Of a stretch of 50,873 nucleotides of DNA, positions 25,594 through 33,431 are shown one piece after another. The translations under genes were made by a program, and so were the position numbers. This DNA is from an uncultured Eubacteriales bacterium (GTDB lineage Bacteria; Bacillota; Clostridia; Christensenellales; Aristaeellaceae). The stretch is taken from positions 1 through 50,873 of the forward strand of contig CADAQZ010000006.1 in the NCBI GenBank assembly GCA_902790175.1. Direction: 5' to 3'. How positions within the stretch are numbered: the stretch's first letter is position 1; each line of letters opens with the position of its first letter. The notes below the pieces were generated by a model. The model was not told where the DNA came from and searched no databases. It saw nothing but the letters and a program-made list of their open reading frames with translations.

Positions 25594-25803
25594 TCATTCG
25601 ATGCCGAGGACCTTGTAATCCTGCGCCTCCACCGCGGCGCGCAGCGCGTCGTCCTCCACGGGCGCGCTCAGCGTCACCACGGCCGTGCCGCTGTTGTGGT
25701 CCGCCGCGGCGCTCTCCACGCCGGGAACGGCCTCCAGCGCCTTCTTCACGCGCGCCTCGCAGTGGCCGCACATCATGCCTTCTACCTTCAGGGTCTTTTT
25801 CAT
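25594..25803 (-). CDS. copZ: Possible separate CopZ-like copper chaperone from an internal start in copA
   Basis: Within the copA frame, ATAAAGGAGG stands 8 nt before an ATG at 25803. Translation from there gives 69 residues, MKKTLKVEGMMCGHCEARVK onward, the full size and motif of a stand-alone CopZ chaperone (ferredoxin-like HMA fold, Cu(I) bound by the two Cys of GMMCGHC). So the operon could yield both the fused CopA and free CopZ, or the fusion may have arisen by loss of the copA stop codon with the old copZ signals left behind. Whether the internal start is used is inference. Confidence 0.5.
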   Translation of the reverse strand: MKKTLKVEGMMCGHCEARVKKALEAVPGVESAAADHNSGTAVVTLSAPVEDDALRAAVEAQDYKVLGIE

Positions 25804-28131
25804 CGTCTTTTCCTCCTTTATGGTTGCCGCGGCGGCGATCTCATCGAGCGCGTCCGCGGAGATTGGCTTGCCTTTTTTGTCATGACGGGCGTCGTGGGGG
25901 TTGACCAGGTTCAGCCGCAGCGCATTCATGCACACGAAGAAGCTGGACAGCGCCATCGCCGCCGCGCCGTACATGGGCTTCATCTCGATGCCGTACAGCC
26001 CCATCGCCAGCGGGATGCAGATGGCATTGTAGAAGAACGCCCAGAACAGGTTTTGATGGATGTTTCGGATCGTGGCGCGGCTCAGCCGGATGGCAGCCGT
26101 CACGTCGGTCAGGCGGCTCTTCATCACCACGATGTCCGCCGCGTCGATGGCCACGTCCGTGCCCGCGCCGATGGCGACGCCGTTGTCCGCCACCGTCAGC
26201 GCCGGGGCGTCGTTGATGCCGTCGCCGACCATGGCGACCTTCCCCAGCGGCATTAATTTGCGGATGACCTCCGCCTTGCCCTCCGGCAGCACGCCCGCCA
26301 CGACCTGGTCCACGCCCGCCTGCCGGCTGATCGCCTGCGCGGTGCGCGCGTTGTCGCCGGTCAGCATGACGGTATGGATGCCCATGTTGCGCAATTCGCG
26401 GATGGCCTGCGCGGAGTCCTGCTTGATGGGGTCCGCCACCGCGATCAACCCGATCAGTTCGCCGCCCAGCGCGAACAGCAGCGGCGTCTTGCCTTCCTGG
26501 GCGAGGGCGTCGGCCCGCGCGGTGACGGCATCGCCGACCAGTCCCTTGGAAGTCAGGAATTTCAGGCTCCCGCCCAGCAGCTCCTTTCCGTCCAGACGGG
26601 CGCGCAGGCCGTGGCCGGGCAGGGCCTCAAAGTCGCCGATCTCGGAAAGCGCCAGGCCCGCCGCCTCGGCGGTCACGGCCTTCGCCAGCGGGTGCTCGCT
26701 GTTCTTCTCCAGCGACGCGGCGAGGATGAGCAGCTCATCCCGCTCAACGCCGACGGGGATCACGTCCGTCACGCGCGGCTGTCCCTCCGTCACGGTGCCC
26801 GTCTTGTCCAGCGCGATCACCTGTGTGCGGCCCGCGCCCTCCAGCGCGGCGGCGGTCTTGTACAGCACGCCGGTCTTCGCGCCGACGCCGCTGCCGACCA
26901 TGATGGCAACCGGCGTCGCCAAGCCCAGCGCGCAGGGGCAGCTGATCACCAGCACCGAGATGCCGCGGGCGATGGCGAAGGCAAAGGATTTTCCGGCGAT
27001 CAGCCAGCCGACCAGCGTCAACAGCGCCAGGCCGATCACCGCGGGCACGAAGATGCCGGACACCCTGTCCGCGATGCGCGCCAGCGGGGCCTTGGTGGCG
27101 GCGGCATCGGAGACGGTGCGGATGATCTGCGCCAGCGTGGTGTCCTCGCCGACGCGCGTCGCGCGGCACTCGATGTAGCCCTGCTGGTTCATCGTCGCGG
27201 CGGAGACCGCGTCGCCCTCCGCCTTGTCCACCGGGATGCTCTCGCCGGTCAGCGCGGACTCGTTGACCGCCGTCATGCCCTTCACGATCACGCCGTCCAC
27301 CGGGATCTGCTCGCCCGGGCGCACCACGAAGATGTCGCCGGCGTTGACTTCCTCAATGCCGACCTCCGTCTCCACGCCGTCCTTGAGCAGCACGGCGGTC
27401 TTGGGCGCGAGCCTCATCAGGCCCTTGAGCGCGTCCGTCGTGCGGCCCTTCGACATCGCCTCCAGCATCTTGCCGATGGTGATCAGCGTCGGGATCATCG
27501 CCGCGGACTCGAAGTACAGGTTCATGCCGTACTTCATCACCACGTCGTGCGCGCCCTCGCCCTGCGCGAGGATCATCAGAAACAGCTCCGCCAGCGAATA
27601 GGCCAGCGACGCGCTGGAGCCCAGCGCCACGAGCGTGTCCATGTTCGGCGCGCCGCGAAACAGCGCGACAAAGCCGGAGGTAAAGAACTTCTGGTTGATG
27701 ATCATAACGATCACCGCCAGCAGCAGCTCAAACAGCCCCAGGAACACGAGGTTGTCGAACGCCGCGGGCGCGGGCCAGCCCCACATGCCGTGGCCCATCG
27801 AGAAGTACATCAGCACCAGCAGGATCGGCACCGAGAACAGCAGCCGCTTTTTCAGCTTCGGCGTCTCGCGGTCCTTCAAAGCCTCGGCGTCGGCCCACGA
27901 GGGCGAATCCCCGGAGGCGGCCCTTTTCTCCGCGCCTTTCAGCGACGCGCCATACCCGGCGGCCTCCACGGCGCGGATGATGTCGGCGGAGGAGGCCGTG
28001 CCCTCCACGCCCATCGAGTTCGTCAGCAGGCTCACCGCGCAGGACGTGACGCCCGGCACGCCGCACACCGCCTTCTCCACGCGGCTGGAGCACGCCGCGC
28101 AGCTCATGCCGGTCACGTTATACTGTTCCAT
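25594..28131 (-). CDS. copA: Copper-exporting P1B-type ATPase with N- and C-terminal HMA domains
   Basis: An 845-residue Cu(I) exporter. N-terminal heavy-metal domain with GMSCAAC (8-14), membrane helices, actuator TGES, transport site ISCPCALGLATP near 397, phosphorylation site DKTGT near 441, a conserved SEHPLA loop and the hinge GDGINDAP near 637. After the last helices a second metal domain with GMMCGHC (about 786-792) is joined in frame. This tail begins at an internal Met (777) that has its own AGGAGG 8 nt upstream. Downstream of csoR with 15 nt between, in one copper-controlled operon. All catalytic residues are present. Confidence 0.95.
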   Translation of the reverse strand: MEQYNVTGMSCAACSSRVEKAVCGVPGVTSCAVSLLTNSMGVEGTASSADIIRAVEAAGYGASLKGAEKRAASGDSPSWADAEALKDRETPKLKKRLLFSVPILLVLMYFSMGHGMWGWPAPAAFDNLVFLGLFELLLAVIVMIINQKFFTSGFVALFRGAPNMDTLVALGSSASLAYSLAELFLMILAQGEGAHDVVMKYGMNLYFESAAMIPTLITIGKMLEAMSKGRTTDALKGLMRLAPKTAVLLKDGVETEVGIEEVNAGDIFVVRPGEQIPVDGVIVKGMTAVNESALTGESIPVDKAEGDAVSAATMNQQGYIECRATRVGEDTTLAQIIRTVSDAAATKAPLARIADRVSGIFVPAVIGLALLTLVGWLIAGKSFAFAIARGISVLVISCPCALGLATPVAIMVGSGVGAKTGVLYKTAAALEGAGRTQVIALDKTGTVTEGQPRVTDVIPVGVERDELLILAASLEKNSEHPLAKAVTAEAAGLALSEIGDFEALPGHGLRARLDGKELLGGSLKFLTSKGLVGDAVTARADALAQEGKTPLLFALGGELIGLIAVADPIKQDSAQAIRELRNMGIHTVMLTGDNARTAQAISRQAGVDQVVAGVLPEGKAEVIRKLMPLGKVAMVGDGINDAPALTVADNGVAIGAGTDVAIDAADIVVMKSRLTDVTAAIRLSRATIRNIHQNLFWAFFYNAICIPLAMGLYGIEMKPMYGAAAMALSSFFVCMNALRLNLVNPHDARHDKKGKPISADALDEIAAAATIKEEKTMKKTLKVEGMMCGHCEARVKKALEAVPGVESAAADHNSGTAVVTLSAPVEDDALRAAVEAQDYKVLGIE

Positions 28132-28146
28132 TTCCGTTCCCCTTCA

Positions 28147-28449
28147 TCACTTCATCAGCTTCTGCAGCGTGCCCATCAGCTCGTCCACCGCGTCCTCGCG
28201 CCCGGCGCGGATGTCCTCCGTCACGCAGGTGCGCAGGTGGCTGGTCAACAGCACCCGGCAAAAGCTGTTCAGCGCGGAATTAACTGCGGACGCCTGTGTC
28301 AGTATGTCCGGGCAGTAGGCGTCCTCATCCAGCATCCGCTGCAGGCCGCGCACCTGCCCCTCGATCCGCTTCAGGCGGTTCATCAGGTCGCGGTGCTCCT
28401 TCTCGTCCCGGACCTTCTTCCGGCCGGAATGGACATGGGTGTCCGCCAT
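28147..28449 (-). CDS. csoR: CsoR-type copper-sensing repressor
   Basis: A repressor of 100 residues with the all-helical CsoR/RcnR fold. Cu(I) ligands are visible as Cys in DAYCPDIL and His plus Cys in SHLRTCV. It opens with MADTHVHSGRKK, a His-containing tail, then LMNRLKRIEGQVRGLQRML. The start at 28449 has GGAGG 10 nt upstream; an in-frame ATG at 28476 overlaps the operator and lacks a ribosome binding site. First gene of the csoR-copA operon and clearly autoregulated through the two palindromes just upstream. Released from DNA when copper binds. Confidence 0.93.
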   Translation of the reverse strand: MADTHVHSGRKKVRDEKEHRDLMNRLKRIEGQVRGLQRMLDEDAYCPDILTQASAVNSALNSFCRVLLTSHLRTCVTEDIRAGREDAVDELMGTLQKLMK

Positions 28450-28467
28450 GGTCTGCGCCTCCGTTTT

Positions 28468-28484
28468 ATACCCCATGGGGGTAT
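28468..28484. promoter_or_regulatory. CsoR operator 2, downstream of the transcription start
   Basis: ATACCCCATGGGGGTAT, a near-perfect inverted repeat of the CsoR-box type, placed at about +10 to +26 between the -10 element and the csoR start codon. Confidence 0.75.
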
Positions 28485-28499
28485 CTGTTCGATGGGATG

Positions 28500-28528
28500 A
28501 TTATATACCCCATCGGGGTATTTGTCAA
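28500..28528 (-). promoter_or_regulatory. Promoter of csoR-copA
   Basis: Minus strand: -35 TTGACA (28523-28528), 17-nt spacer, -10 TATAAT (28500-28505). Full consensus; the spacer is almost entirely occupied by CsoR operator 1. Confidence 0.9.
28505..28521. promoter_or_regulatory. CsoR operator 1 in the promoter spacer
   Basis: ATACCCCATCGGGGTAT, a perfect inverted repeat with 7-bp arms. It fills the spacer between -35 and -10, so bound CsoR would block RNA polymerase. Confidence 0.85.
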
Positions 28529-29898: not shown

Positions 29899-30726
29899 TC
29901 ATTCGACCACGCCGCCCTCGACCACCAGGTTGTCCGGGTCGACCGCGTCGCCGTAGACATCCTTCAGCGTGGCGTCGTAATCCGCATGGAAGAACTGCTC
30001 CTCCGCCAGCTTCTGGATCTCCTCGTTGATGTAGGCCAGCACGGTGTCGTTCCCCTTTTGCACCGCCGGGGCGATGGTGTCCAGGCTGCCCAGCGATTCG
30101 ATGCCCACGGTGAAGCCGGGGTTCTCGATGGCCCAGGCCAGCACCTCGGTGTTGTCGGTGGACAGCGCGTCGCCGCGGCCGTCCAGCAGCGCGTTGAAGG
30201 TCTCGGTGTAGGTGTCGAACTTCAAAAGGTTCACGTCCGGCTCGTTGGCGGTGAACCAGGTTTCGGCGGTGGTGCCCTTGGAAACGATCAGGGTCTTGCC
30301 GCGCAGGTCCTCCACGGAGGTGATCAGCGCCGCGTCCGGGCTGACCACGCCCAGCGCCACCTTCATGTAGGGCAGCGCGAAGTCCACCACCTCGGCGCGC
30401 TCGGGCGTCACGGTGAAGTTCGCGAGGATGATGTCCACCTTGGCGCTGGTCAGGTATTCCACGCGGTTGGGCGCGTCCACGCTCACCAGCTCCAGCTCCA
30501 CGCCCAGGTCCTCCGCGAGGCGGCGGGCGAAGTACACGTCGTAGCCCTGGTATTCGCCGTATTCATCCACATAGCCGAAGGGCTTTTTATCTGAGAAGAC
30601 GCCGATCACGAGCTTGCCGCTCTCTTTGATCTCGTCGAGCGTGCGGGCCTGCGCGTCCGCGGAGGCCGCGGCGATCAGGGACAGGGTCAGGATCAGGGCG
30701 ATAATCAGCGCAAATATCTTTTTCAT
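29899..30726 (-). CDS. Polar amino-acid (probably cystine) ABC transporter binding protein
   Basis: A 275-residue family 3 extracellular binding protein. Signal peptide MKKIFALIIALILTLSLIAA (cleavage probably at ASA; no lipobox). The mature part has the family pattern GKLVIGVFSDKKPFGYVDE, GYDVYFARRLAEDLG and VDIILANFTVTPERAEVVDF. It should deliver an amino acid to the permeases encoded further upstream. It has its own promoter (31051-31079) and a leader with two mini-ORFs and a terminator. Cys-rich leader coding points to cystine, cysteine or another sulfur amino acid; the substrate is inferred from regulation, not from residues. AAAGGAG lies 7 nt before the start. Confidence 0.88.
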   Translation of the reverse strand: MKKIFALIIALILTLSLIAAASADAQARTLDEIKESGKLVIGVFSDKKPFGYVDEYGEYQGYDVYFARRLAEDLGVELELVSVDAPNRVEYLTSAKVDIILANFTVTPERAEVVDFALPYMKVALGVVSPDAALITSVEDLRGKTLIVSKGTTAETWFTANEPDVNLLKFDTYTETFNALLDGRGDALSTDNTEVLAWAIENPGFTVGIESLGSLDTIAPAVQKGNDTVLAYINEEIQKLAEEQFFHADYDATLKDVYGDAVDPDNLVVEGGVVE

Positions 30727-30773: not shown

Positions 30774-30842
30774 TCAACGCATCATGCTCCGACATCGAAA
30801 GGTTACGGCGGCCCGCATGAGCCATGTCATTCGCTTCATCAT
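30774..30842 (-). CDS. Met-rich 22-residue leader peptide
   Basis: Positions 30842 down to 30774 encode 22 residues beginning MMKRMTWLMR, with Met at 1, 2, 5, 9, 20 and 21 and one Cys at 17. A strong AAAGGAGG stands 7 nt upstream. It lies between the attenuator terminator and the binding-protein gene, whose start is 48 nt beyond the stop. Met codons at this density suggest a ribosome-stalling or coupling leader responsive to methionine supply. No known family. Confidence 0.5.
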   Translation of the reverse strand: MMKRMTWLMRAAVTFRCRSMMR

Positions 30843-30861: not shown

Positions 30862-30922
30862 GTATAAAAACCGGCGGGGCAGGTTGGACGCATCGCGATC
30901 ATCCAATCTGCCCCGCCGGTTT
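30862..30922 (-). terminator. Attenuator terminator upstream of the binding-protein gene
   Basis: Minus-strand RNA forms a stem of about 21 pairs with one A-C mismatch (arms 30902-30922 and 30868-30888), a 13-nt loop, and then UUUUUAU. It is located 19 nt after the stop of the Cys-rich leader ORF and before the structural gene, which is the attenuator arrangement. Confidence 0.85.
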
Positions 30923-30940
30923 CCCGCCTTTGCCTGCACG

Positions 30941-31012
30941 CTAAGACGGCCGACAGGTCGATGGACGACGCCCGCGGCACATACAACACATGCAGGATCG
31001 AATTGCGAACAT
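30941..31012 (-). CDS. Cys-rich 23-residue leader peptide
   Basis: The ORF from 31012 to 30941 begins MFAIRSCMCCMCRGRR and has Cys at 7, 9, 10, 12 and 20, with Met between them (codons TGC ATG TGT TGT ATG TGC). AGGAGG is 8 nt upstream of the ATG and the promoter about 40 nt upstream. The stop codon is 19 nt before a strong terminator. CCTGCA around the first Cys codon can pair with TGCAGG just after the stop, so ribosome position could change the fold. Predicted to sense charged Cys (and perhaps Met) tRNA. Confidence 0.65.
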   Translation of the reverse strand: MFAIRSCMCCMCRGRRPSTCRPS

Positions 31013-31050
31013 GTCGGGCGCCTCCTCTCATTTCCTATCTGGATGATATG

Positions 31051-31079
31051 ATTATATCCGGTCCGAAAACGTTTGTCAA
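31051..31079 (-). promoter_or_regulatory. Consensus promoter of the leader/binding-protein unit
   Basis: Minus strand: -35 TTGACA (31074-31079), 17-nt spacer, -10 TATAAT (31051-31056). It starts 6 nt after the stop codon of the ATPase gene, so the binding protein gene is a separate transcription unit. Confidence 0.92.
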
Positions 31080-31084
31080 TGGGT

Positions 31085-31834
31085 TTACGGTTTTTTAACC
31101 GCTGTGAACTCGAACGTGTCCAGGAACTGCCGGGCGCGCTCGGTCCGGGGATGGTGGAAGAAGTCGGCGGGCTTGCCCTCCTCGACGATCGTTCCGTTCT
31201 CGAGGAACAGCACGCGGTCCGCCACGGCCTCGGCAAAGCGCATCTCGTGGGTCACGATCAGCATGGTCATGCCGTCGCGCGCCAGGTCGAGCACCACGTT
31301 CAAAACCTCCCGCACCATTTCGGGGTCCAGCGCCGCGGTGATCTCGTCCAAGAGCAGCATGCGGGGGTGCATCATCATGGCCCGCACCAGCGCCACGCGC
31401 TGCTTCTGCCCGCCGGAGAGCTGCCGGGGCAGCGCGAGCAGCTTGTCCTCCAGGCCCACGCGCCGAAGCGCCTGCCGCGCCTCCTCCTCGGCCTCTCCCT
31501 TCGGGCGCTTCAGCGCCTTCACCGGCCCGAGCGTCAGGTTTTCCAGCACGTCCATGTGCGGGAACAGATCGTAGCTCTGGAACACCATGCCGATCTGGCG
31601 GCGCACCTGAACCAGGTTGCCCGCGGAGATGGGCTGGCCGTCCAGCAGGATCTCGCCGCCGTCGGGCTGCTCCAGGCCGTTCACGCACCGCAGCAGCGTG
31701 CTCTTGCCGCAGCCGCTGGGGCCGACCACTACGATGACCTCGCCCTCCCGCACGGACAGCGAGATGCCGTCCAGCACGCCGTTGCCGTCGAAGCTCTTTT
31801 TCAGATTCCGTATCTCAAGAACGTTGTTGTCCAT
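31085..31834 (-). CDS. Polar amino-acid ABC transporter ATPase
   Basis: A 249-residue ATPase of the GlnQ/TcyN type. Walker A GPSGCGKST (about 39-47), Q-loop MVFQSYDLFPH, signature LSGGQKQRVALVRAM, Walker B MLLLDEITAALDPE and switch THEM. The family-typical FLDTFEF ends the protein. It energises the two permeases encoded just upstream (18 nt gap). The third Asp of the usual LLFDEPTSALD is unchanged, with P to I and S to A substitutions. Last gene of the permease operon. Confidence 0.94.
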   Translation of the reverse strand: MDNNVLEIRNLKKSFDGNGVLDGISLSVREGEVIVVVGPSGCGKSTLLRCVNGLEQPDGGEILLDGQPISAGNLVQVRRQIGMVFQSYDLFPHMDVLENLTLGPVKALKRPKGEAEEEARQALRRVGLEDKLLALPRQLSGGQKQRVALVRAMMMHPRMLLLDEITAALDPEMVREVLNVVLDLARDGMTMLIVTHEMRFAEAVADRVLFLENGTIVEEGKPADFFHHPRTERARQFLDTFEFTAVKKP

Positions 31835-31852: not shown

Positions 31853-32521
31853 TCAACTCCATCGCTTTTCCAGCCAGCCCGCCGCCAGCGATATGGGCCA
31901 GCAGGCGAAGAAATACAGGAAGAACACCGCGCCGTAGACCCACACCGCGCCCTGCGGGGCGTCGTAGCGGGCGGCGTCGATGATCTGGCTGCCCACCTTC
32001 AAGACCTCCACCACGCCGATGAGCATCACCAGCGACGTGGTCTTGATCATGCGGGTCGTCAGGTTGATGGCCTGGGGGATCAGCCGCCGCGCCGCCTGCG
32101 GCAGCAGCACGTAGCGCCAGGTCTGGCCCCGCGTGAGCCCCAGGGCCGCGCTGCTCTCACGCTGGTGGACGGGAATGGAGGTGATCGCGCCGCGCACCAG
32201 GTCCCCCATCTCGCCCGCGCCCCAGAAGGTGAACACGATCACCGCCGCGGCCTCGCCGGAAAGCTGTAGGTTGAACGTCTTTGCCATGCCGAAGTACACC
32301 AGGAACAGCAAGACCAGCTGCGGCACGATGCGCACCGTCTCCAGCCACAGCCGCATCGCGGCTCGGACGACCGGGTTCTTCAGCGTCATCAACACGCCCG
32401 CCAGCAGCCCCAGCACGATCGACAGCGCCACCGACGCCAGCGACAATTCCAGCGTCACGCCCAGGCCGCCCAGCAGCCGCTGGAGGTTGTTTCCCTTAAA
32501 CAGCACCGCCAAATCCCGCAT
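31853..32521 (-). CDS. Polar amino-acid ABC transporter permease 2
   Basis: About 222 residues, with four to five membrane helices and the His/Glu/Gln-family EAA motif ESSAALGLTRGQTWRYVLLPQA followed by IPQAINLTTRMIKTTSL. It forms a heterodimer with the permease encoded upstream. The start at 32521 has AAAGGAGG 7 nt before it and overlaps the end of permease 1 by 26 nt, indicating coupled translation. Two different permeases with one ATPase match the TcyL/TcyM/TcyN cystine layout of Bacillus, among others. Confidence 0.92.
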   Translation of the reverse strand: MRDLAVLFKGNNLQRLLGGLGVTLELSLASVALSIVLGLLAGVLMTLKNPVVRAAMRLWLETVRIVPQLVLLFLVYFGMAKTFNLQLSGEAAAVIVFTFWGAGEMGDLVRGAITSIPVHQRESSAALGLTRGQTWRYVLLPQAARRLIPQAINLTTRMIKTTSLVMLIGVVEVLKVGSQIIDAARYDAPQGAVWVYGAVFFLYFFACWPISLAAGWLEKRWS

Positions 32522-33161
32522 GGCGCAGCCTCCTTTCCAGCAGCGAAAACACGATCGACAACGGCAGCAGCAGCGCCAGGTACGCAAGCGTCAGCATCAA
32601 AAGCGCCTCGTCCGTCCGGTAGTACATGCCGATCAGGTCCTTGGCCACGTACATCAGATCCGCCAGCGCCACGGCGCTGAACACGCTGGTCTCCTTGATC
32701 AGGAACACGGCGTTCGCGCCGATGGAGGGGATCGCCGTAGCCAGCGCCTGCGGCAGGATCACGTAGCGCATGTTCTGCATCGGCGTCAGGCCCAGGCAGA
32801 GCCCGGACTCGTGTTGCGCGGTGTCCACGGCCTCCAGCCCGCTGCGCAGGCTTTCCGCCATGTACGCGCCCCCCAGGAAGGTCAGGCCCGCGATGGCGCA
32901 GGTTTCCGCGCTCAACTTCACGCCGATCTTCGGCAGGCCGAAGTACAGGAAGAAGAGCTGCACCAGCAGCGGCGTGTTGCGCGCCAGCTCGATGTAGACG
33001 CCCGCGACCCTGCGCAGCACGGGCACCCTGAACTGCCTGGCCAGGCAGCACAGCGCGCCGACCGCCAGCGAAAGCGCGATGCCCGTCGCGCCCAGGCGCA
33101 GCGTCAGCCCCGCCGCCTTGACGTACATCGGCAGGAATTTGCGCATGAATTCGGTATCCAC
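32496..33161 (-). CDS. Polar amino-acid ABC transporter permease 1
   Basis: A 221-residue permease with GTG start at 33161 (GAGGGGG about 9 nt upstream). Family marks: IELARNTPLLVQLFFLYFGL, FLGGAYMAESLRSGLEAV, then the EAA loop HESGLCLGLTPMQNMRYVIL and IPSIGANAVFLIKETS. Membrane-bound. First structural gene of the operon; a leader peptide and terminator lie between it and the promoter at 33403-33431. Confidence 0.92.
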   Translation of the reverse strand: MDTEFMRKFLPMYVKAAGLTLRLGATGIALSLAVGALCCLARQFRVPVLRRVAGVYIELARNTPLLVQLFFLYFGLPKIGVKLSAETCAIAGLTFLGGAYMAESLRSGLEAVDTAQHESGLCLGLTPMQNMRYVILPQALATAIPSIGANAVFLIKETSVFSAVALADLMYVAKDLIGMYYRTDEALLMLTLAYLALLLPLSIVFSLLERRLRHAGFGGAV

Positions 33162-33252: not shown

Positions 33253-33278
33253 CAAAAAACAGCGGCCTGCGGCCGCTG
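33253..33278 (-). terminator. Attenuator terminator upstream of the permease operon
   Basis: Textbook intrinsic terminator on the minus strand: 8-bp stem CAGCGGCC / GGCCGCTG, loop GCA, then TTTTTTG. It stands 22 nt after the leader ORF stop and 92 nt before the first permease start. The 5' arm (GCAGCGG) can also pair with the Asp-Cys-Cys codons of the leader (CTGTTGC, 7 pairs with two G-U). Confidence 0.9.
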
Positions 33279-33299
33279 CAATGCTCCCCTCGATGAACA

Positions 33300-33380
33300 T
33301 CACCGGCGAACAGGCATGGCAAAGCCCGCCATCCGGCAACAGTCATAAGCGTATTCTACATAAGTGCGACGCACTGCCAT
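33300..33380 (-). CDS. 26-residue leader peptide with tandem Cys codons
   Basis: The ORF from 33380 to 33300 begins MAVRRTYVEYAYDCCRM, with adjacent Cys codons TGT TGC at 14-15 and Met at 17 and 22. AAAGGAGG lies 8 nt upstream. The ribosome-binding region AGGAGGCGC-N4/5-CATG is nearly the same as in the Cys-rich leader at 30941-31012, suggesting common descent. A short hairpin (ATGGC/GCCAT) just after the Cys codons could act as a pause site. Together with the terminator at 33253-33278 it forms a second attenuator. Confidence 0.65.
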   Translation of the reverse strand: MAVRRTYVEYAYDCCRMAGFAMPVRR

Positions 33381-33402: not shown

Positions 33403-33431
33403 AGTATAATGGGCTAATCCCATTCTGTCAA
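33403..33431 (-). promoter_or_regulatory. Consensus promoter of the permease-permease-ATPase operon
   Basis: Minus strand: -35 TTGACA (33426-33431), 17-nt spacer, -10 TATACT (33403-33408). The leader ORF starts 23 nt downstream of the -10. Confidence 0.9.

Follow-up and report, generated by a model that had tools for sequence, protein, structure and literature searches.

Introduction

Attenuators of the classical trp/his type combine regulatory codons in a leader peptide with an antiterminator and a terminator that exclude one another. They can be recognized by a short ORF with a ribosome-binding site ahead of the controlled gene, by clustered and conserved codons for the regulating amino acid, by an intrinsic terminator between ORF and gene, by a covarying antiterminator that is exclusive with this terminator, and by a controlled gene that serves the same amino acid.

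For cysteine, such control has been predicted for the uORFC-8-2 motif before cysS in Rhodobacterales, a Cys leader followed by a terminator (PMC8632094). The available part of that source places the motif before the cysteinyl-tRNA synthetase gene of Alphaproteobacteria, with Cys usually at codons 14-15, and mentions no second uORF. In mycobacteria, Cys-rich, cysteine-responsive short ORFs precede operon genes; these polycysteine sORFs are described as leaderless (Canestrari 2020). In the portion accessible to us, PMC1262725 reports no conserved terminator hairpins upstream of mycobacterial cys operons and no obvious terminators behind the Cys-rich leaders of Actinobacteria. A His leader before hisS/hisZ is known from bacilli, and the excerpted text of that 2010 paper presents Firmicutes leader peptides as a new finding (PMC2965389). 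For clostridia, the sources found describe CymR (PMC3828012) and cysteine T-boxes (PMC2940859); in the latter, cysteine-controlled premature termination acts on cysteine genes and transporters, and tRNA binds the RNA directly without a leader peptide. Our literature search, which covered few subscription papers, found no Cys leader peptide in Clostridia among the matches listed.

Here we describe a locus in a 50,873-base stretch of DNA from a gut-type clostridial bacterium (the window) that, with a probability of about 0.8, is regulated by ribosome-mediated transcription attenuation according to cysteine supply, through a leader ORF (ORF1) and a parallel attenuator (ORF0). The type of control is known; it is unexpected in Clostridia. 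Like uORFC-8-2, the locus has a short uORF with tandem Cys codons and then an intrinsic terminator, and ribosome-mediated attenuation is predicted for both. However, ORF1 has its cluster at codons 7-12 and lies ahead of transporter genes rather than cysS, and ORF0, which shares the Cys-Cys at codons 14-15, precedes a permease gene. Like the mycobacterial sORFs, ORF1 is short, Cys-rich and ahead of operon genes, but it is not leaderless, having an AGGAGG 8 nt before its ATG. With the trp/his-type attenuators and the bacilli His leader it shares regulatory codons and an exclusive antiterminator and terminator, and differs in the amino acid and in controlling a transporter. Cysteine T-boxes would resemble it in outcome, but do so without a leader peptide.

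Anatomy of the leader

All features described here lie on the minus strand. As claimed in the preliminary description, a perfect consensus promoter (TTGACA-17-TATAAT, 31079-31051) precedes the binding-protein unit; the window contains two such promoters, against 0.00 expected from shuffles, and a 17-nt-spaced promoter-like pair was found in 46/55 orthologous loci. The −35 box lies 5 nt past the stop codon of the transporter ATPase gene. The claimed 23-codon ORF with five Cys codons, a CMCCMC core and a well-spaced AGGAGG was likewise present in full: the AGGAGG is at 31026-31021, 8 nt ahead of the ATG at 31012, and ORF1 (30941-31012; MFAIRSCMCCMCRGRRPSTCRPS including the stop) starts 38 nt past the −10 box and has Cys at codons 7, 9, 10, 12 and 20. 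Its Cys-Met-Cys-Cys-Met-Cys codons (30977-30994) form the predicted stall site. An intrinsic terminator, the putative attenuator, lies between ORF1 and the gene (30866-30923; −42.7 kcal/mol). Here the earlier account was correct in placing a terminator with a U-tract (TTTTT) ahead of the gene and incorrect in giving it 21 pairs, the predicted stem having 16+7 pairs and one mismatch. The leader as a whole (31045-30727) folds better than its dinucleotide shuffles (z −4.0), none of the 100 being as good.

The transporter genes

The gene behind this leader (29899-30726) encodes a family 3 solute-binding protein. Its two closest solved relatives, which align nearly end to end, are PDB 1xt8 (E 5e-86) and 2yjp (E 2e-77), and both are listed as cysteine binders (CjaA, 100 µM, and Ngo2014, 0.026 µM; PMC9824665, Table 3). 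CjaA binds cysteine, its part in import being described as unproven in the available text of PMC4178425. Judged by this similarity, the substrate of the window protein is probably cysteine; the correspondence between the controlled gene and the amino acid of its leader is drawn from likeness to cysteine binders only. The same transporter includes an ATP-binding protein (31085-31834) and two permeases (31853-32587 and 32496-33161, the latter the first gene of the upstream unit). Both permeases match TIGR01726 above cut-off. The ATPase has as its best NCBIfam model TcyN, a cystine ATPase, below cut-off, and NCBIfam yielded no equivalog above cut-off.

Conservation of the Cys-rich ORF

A search of related genomes for conserved Cys leader ORFs, as advised in the preliminary description, was carried out at two levels. 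Orthologs of the binding protein were found in 18 of 28 same-genus genomes (E<=1e-40) and, at E<=1e-115, in 55 of 308 genomes of the family; the upstream DNA was inspected in all 55. ORF1 is present at 18/18 of the genus loci and at 49/55 of the family loci, and because a Cys-rich ORF is conserved at this place the leader anatomy is more than chance. Homologs at 60-63% identity (L194-L200), which were left out of the 55-locus set, lie directly behind the ATPase gene without a leader. One locus outside the set (L265), found via the pattern of a further short ORF described below (ORF2), has both ORF1 and ORF2 ahead of a binding-protein gene truncated where the contig stops.

Each of the 49 ORF1 peptides has 2-6 Cys, the lower bound being partly imposed by the search rule (>=2 Cys). 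Cys accounts for 214 of 1,163 non-start codons, compared with 141 of 13,903 in mechanically chosen window ORFs. At 46 loci these Cys codons are TGT 145 : TGC 56; in the mechanically chosen ORFs, which may include spurious ones, they are TGC 129 : TGT 12. Within the genus, CC is kept in 18/18 loci and CCxC in 16/18, being lost in L134 and L221. The peptides otherwise drift among orthologs (MCCMCRQRRPMPCR, MMCRMCCFRRPSH, MCCCMCGSLRPSR, MCCFCRGCRPSTCR). A leader-profile search of 150 family genomes matched 39 at E<=0.1; six own-genus genomes matched at known leaders (E<=2.3e-4), the rest at E 0.0025 or worse. An order-level search matched 8/297 genomes, all of the same family, and a strict codon pattern matched 4/391 genomes across the class, the source genome and three others. 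As a separate observation, L221 (G017:C343) has about 250 additional bases separating the attenuator from the binding-protein gene, and its leader reads CMCCMSRGC, with one Cys lost and another gained.

ORF1 is absent at six loci (L180, L190, L213, L214, L215 and L219). Of the hairpins found there by rule, the best three per locus all fall within the adjacent gene or ahead of the promoter, and none separates the promoter from the binding-protein gene. Among these hairpins and by eye, a terminator kept where the ORF was lost, named beforehand as evidence against attenuation, was not seen at any of the six. By eye, L213 retains the promoter and an inverted repeat discussed below, and L180, L214 and L215 retain ORF2.

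We also considered a T-box or riboswitch acting without any leader peptide. T-boxes are common in this group, with matches in 28/28 same-genus genomes and 13 in the source genome, and cysteine T-boxes are reported to govern transporters in C. perfringens (PMC2940859). However, at gathering thresholds no Rfam family matched in the window, RF00230 in the leader included, and the Cys ORF is conserved; we regard this explanation as hardly credible.

A covarying antiterminator

A rule-based search found a hairpin behind ORF1 at 46/49 loci, a rule that also gives matches in coding DNA. In L133, L134 and L139 the hairpins have no U-run. More broadly, 9/18 genus loci (L132-L135, L138-L141, L143) combine a strong hairpin with a poor U-tract, the U-run being replaced by TGTTTATAT, TCTATATAA or similar.

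In each group of loci, the stretch of ORF1 codons immediately 3′ of the Cys cluster is similar to the terminator 3′ arm, the mimic being GUCCAUC in the window, CAUCCAAUGCCC in L129, L130 and L137, CGUCCGUCUC in L181 and its kin and CCGGCCUCCC in L188. At the window locus this segment (30949-30968) would be the 5′ half of an antiterminator, with a predicted duplex 30968-30949 × 30920-30900 of −23.6 kcal/mol. Covariation was assessed by a swap test in which the ORF1 segment was paired with its own terminator 5′ arm or with those of other loci, with rows and columns centred and 20,000 permutations, on 18 representatives obtained by clustering the 46 loci. This test replaced a raw swap comparison (657 of 1,560 swaps at least as good as the own pair), which is uninformative because arm lengths differ. 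The segment paired with its own 5′ arm better than with swapped ones (z −3.33, 21/20,000, a count that is not a strict probability because the representatives are still related), so that the covariation check proposed for the leader came out in favour of an antiterminator exclusive with the terminator. The terminator's two arms, the positive control, gave z −10.0. No signal was obtained among these representatives for the ORF1 segment with the 3′ arm (z −0.04), for the 45 nt upstream of ORF1 with the 5′ arm (z 0.47) or for the Cys region with the 5′ arm (z 0.10). Further pairings gave z −0.96 (Cys region with segment), −1.94 (segment with post-stop spacer, 593/20,000), −0.07 (Cys region with spacer) and 1.89 (spacer with 5′ arm). 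Swap residuals were positive in 3/18 representatives (L132, L135, L182) and near zero in some others. Since these ORF1 codons follow the RNA pairing, the Arg-Pro-Ser conserved in many leaders is probably a by-product of that pairing.

The antiterminator originally put forward was a different one, CCTGCA/TGCAGG, and was rejected, as the terminator arm takes no part in it. Its halves are CCTGCATG (30989-30996, in the region of Cys codon 7) and CGTGCAGG (30933-30940, directly past the ORF1 stop). This pairing covaries within the genus (z −2.9, 53/20,000, n=18 loci), with the variants CCUGCA/UGCAGG, UUCUGCA/UGCAGAA and AGCUGCAUG/CGUGCGGUU; outside the genus no covariation was found among 21 representatives (z −0.31, 7,509/20,000). 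Because the pairing spares the terminator arm and a stalled ribosome would melt it, it probably acts as a rival hairpin to the antiterminator.

Folding was then predicted for the 46 loci with the ribosome masking part of the RNA. The terminator 5′ arm was paired upstream with a value of 0.59 with the ribosome at the first Cys, 0.58 at the last Cys of the cluster and 0.43 at the stop codon; without a ribosome it was 0.60. Upstream pairing was higher in the stalled state than at the stop in 38/46 loci (first Cys) and 33/46 (last Cys), and the window locus gave 0.61, 0.62 and 0.16, respectively. In this model, part of the difference between stalled and stop positions is plain masking. As the antiterminator is predicted to form even without a ribosome, RNA that is not being translated should allow read-through unless prevented by further structure. 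At the window locus the terminator (−42.7) greatly exceeds the antiterminator (−23.6) in stability, so that antitermination there has to be argued on kinetic grounds.

These observations provide the basis for a model in which ORF1 is translated while being transcribed. With ample Cys-tRNA, the ribosome would reach the stop codon and cover codons 15-22, the terminator would fold and transcription would end before the gene for the cysteine-binding protein. When Cys-tRNA is scarce, the ribosome would stall on the Cys cluster, and the codons 3′ of it would capture the terminator 5′ arm and allow read-through, switching the importer on when cysteine is short. Attenuation by Cys codons, as the preliminary description had suggested, finds support in the comparison: Cys codons in 49/49 ORF1 peptides, a gene product resembling cysteine binders, a covarying antiterminator and a second Cys-Cys leader. 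From these we infer translation of ORF1, stalling and a response to cysteine.

The same data bear on two other explanations. ORF1 might encode a small protein of the ordinary kind, with the hairpin serving only to terminate the ATPase operon upstream of it. The binding-protein promoter begins 5 nt past the ATPase stop, and a pattern scan, which also misses the 23-pair attenuator, shows no terminator at that point; transcripts from upstream may therefore end at the hairpin as well. However, the hairpin lies between a perfect promoter and the binding-protein gene, it was not seen in that position at the six loci without ORF1, and the codons behind the Cys cluster in ORF1 track the RNA pairing, all of which makes this reading improbable. 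Even more remote is a nascent metal sensor (CxCCxC) linked to the CopA-like ATPase and CsoR-family-like genes at 25594-28476. CMCCMC does resemble a thiolate cluster, but orthologs have MCCCMC, CRMCC, CMCPCM or LCCMC, and such unfixed spacing fits codon content rather than ligand geometry; moreover, the covarying antiterminator sits 3′ of the Cys codons and the controlled gene resembles cysteine importers.

A second leader on the permease-permease-ATPase unit

The unit encoding the two permeases and the ATPase has its own promoter (TTGACA-17-TATACT, 33403-33431, from a pattern scan), followed by a leader peptide with Cys-Cys, ORF0 (33300-33380, MAVRRTYVEYAYDCCRMAGFAMPVRR), and a predicted intrinsic terminator (33258-33279). 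In the genus, where the search required one Cys only, ORF0 was found at 14/16 loci examined, all 14 with CC; it was not found at L223 and L227, and two further loci, which reach contig ends, are outside the 16. TTGACA/TTGACT-17-TATACT precedes ORF0 at 12/13 of the other same-genus loci that have it. Outside the genus, 23 loci were taken and 20 were examinable (L254 has no permease hit; L239 and L240 have no upstream DNA). L237, L245, L247 and L250 have a CC leader and L241 a related one with its Cys separated; no ORF0-type leader was recognized at the remaining loci of the 20. A terminator is predicted behind all 18 leaders of the resulting set, for which CC was the selection rule, although that of L237 is doubtful. 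Covariation of an ORF0 antiterminator was not seen among nine representatives (z 0.64), and the core of the terminator stem hardly varies. In seven pairing tests (spacer with 5′ arm being void), the only signal came from the terminator's own arms (z −5.0). By analogy with ORF1 we infer that ORF0 works as a Cys attenuator, in parallel with it, on the permease-permease-ATPase unit. The one transporter would then have twin leaders.

A further short ORF past the terminator

Between the terminator and the gene, 32/55 loci (4/18 in the genus) have a mostly short ORF (ORF2) that is preceded by an SD and carries Arg/Ala/Val-Cys, mostly as A-[TKR]-D-R-C. In the window, ORF2 (30774-30842, MMKRMTWLMRAAVTFRCRSMMR) has a degenerate motif, AVTFRC, with CGA-TGT (Arg-Cys) at 30797-30792. 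The Ala, Thr, Asp and Cys codons of the motif vary synonymously. Its Arg codon is CGA in 29/29, the other three loci having GCG or GTC there; CGA makes up 4/418 Arg codons in the binding-protein genes of these loci, 7/183 in ORF1, 20/110 elsewhere in ORF2 and 65/1,058 in mechanically chosen window ORFs. Since CGATGY holds an ATG in another frame, the invariance could instead serve an overlapping start. The pattern of SD, ATG and motif occurs in 22/308 genomes, in 17 near the binding-protein gene; the other five matches (L268, L277-L280) lack a gene of this kind in their vicinity, and four of the five fall within long frames. Ten tests for RNA pairing of ORF2 with the start region of the binding-protein gene, the spacer, the terminator arms and ORF1 gave no signal (best z −0.77), several being worse than swaps (up to z 2.4). 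We tentatively raise the possibility, which we consider doubtful, that the mRNA carries two serial cysteine sensors, the ORF1 attenuator and an ORF2 at which ribosomes would pause, affecting translation or stability. The pause site would be A-x-D-R-C, with the invariant rare CGA before the Cys codon.

Operator-like repeats

Just past the −10 box, at 31034-31050, the window has what appears to be a degenerate remnant of an operator-like inverted repeat. In other genera the repeat is clear (ACCCAY...RTGGGT, for example AACCCAT...GTGGGTAAT), and over 44 loci the palindrome score averages 4.3, against 2.2 for shuffles (largest 2.8), with L187 scored at the wrong promoter. We take this repeat to resemble Rrf2/CymR-type sites. 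At L190, by eye, an Rrf2-like gene lies directly upstream. Elsewhere in the window, the second perfect consensus promoter (28500-28528) stands ahead of the CsoR-like and CopA-like genes and has a palindrome, ATACCCCGATGGGGTAT, between its −35 and −10 boxes, which is presumably copper operator-like.

C/M-rich leaders beyond the family and the role of Met

A genome-collection scan for TGYATGTGYTGYATGTGY matched at least 119 stretches, including four from the same genus (L007, L019, L102, L106); 22 have an SD-preceded short ORF, seven of these outside longer frames. Loci beyond the family were chosen by eye, their genes were assigned by inspection and Pfam, and they serve as illustrations rather than as a statistic. 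Short C/M-rich ORFs, in part with terminators, precede cysK-like genes (L022, L104 and, by eye, L023), sulfite/nitrite reductase genes (L044, Prolixibacteraceae; L122, Anaerolineae), a Cys/Met-metabolism PLP enzyme gene (L096, Ferruginibacter) and, in Oribacterium, binding-protein (L117) and URO-D (L077) genes. L044, L096, L122, L022, L104 and L117 come from Bacteroidota, Chloroflexota and other Clostridia. In L049 a cysK-like gene lies about 700 nt from a C/M-rich ORF, past an opposite-strand gene; that region (L049:3400-4300) holds a C-rich leader and terminator, and the opposite-strand neighbour downstream is, by eye, Rrf2-regulator-like.

The switch could also sense sulfur amino acids generally, including Met. 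Codons for both Cys and Met occur in the cluster, Met is present in 49/49 ORF1 peptides (143 of 1,163 non-start codons), and the leader at L096 precedes a gene of Cys/Met metabolism. Against this, Met adjoins CC in only 9/18 ORF0 leaders, L142 has MCCFC where its relatives have MCCMC and carries one Cys more, and the gene product resembles cysteine binders. The loci beyond the family are silent on Met versus Cys because they were picked by eye and the scan pattern contains Met codons. Met sensing appears unlikely to us, and we keep it in view because Met is also enriched in the leaders.

Implications

Attenuation according to cysteine supply, as proposed here for ORF1 and ORF0, would place control by Cys codons in Clostridia, for which the literature found describes T-boxes and CymR at cysteine genes. 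The genomes of the host genus each hold 9-19 T-box matches. Thanks to the antiterminator, the twin leader of the permease operon and the puzzling ORF2, short reporters would allow a direct test of the mechanism. The by-eye cases from other phyla hint at a possible repeated origin of C/M-rich leaders ahead of sulfur genes.
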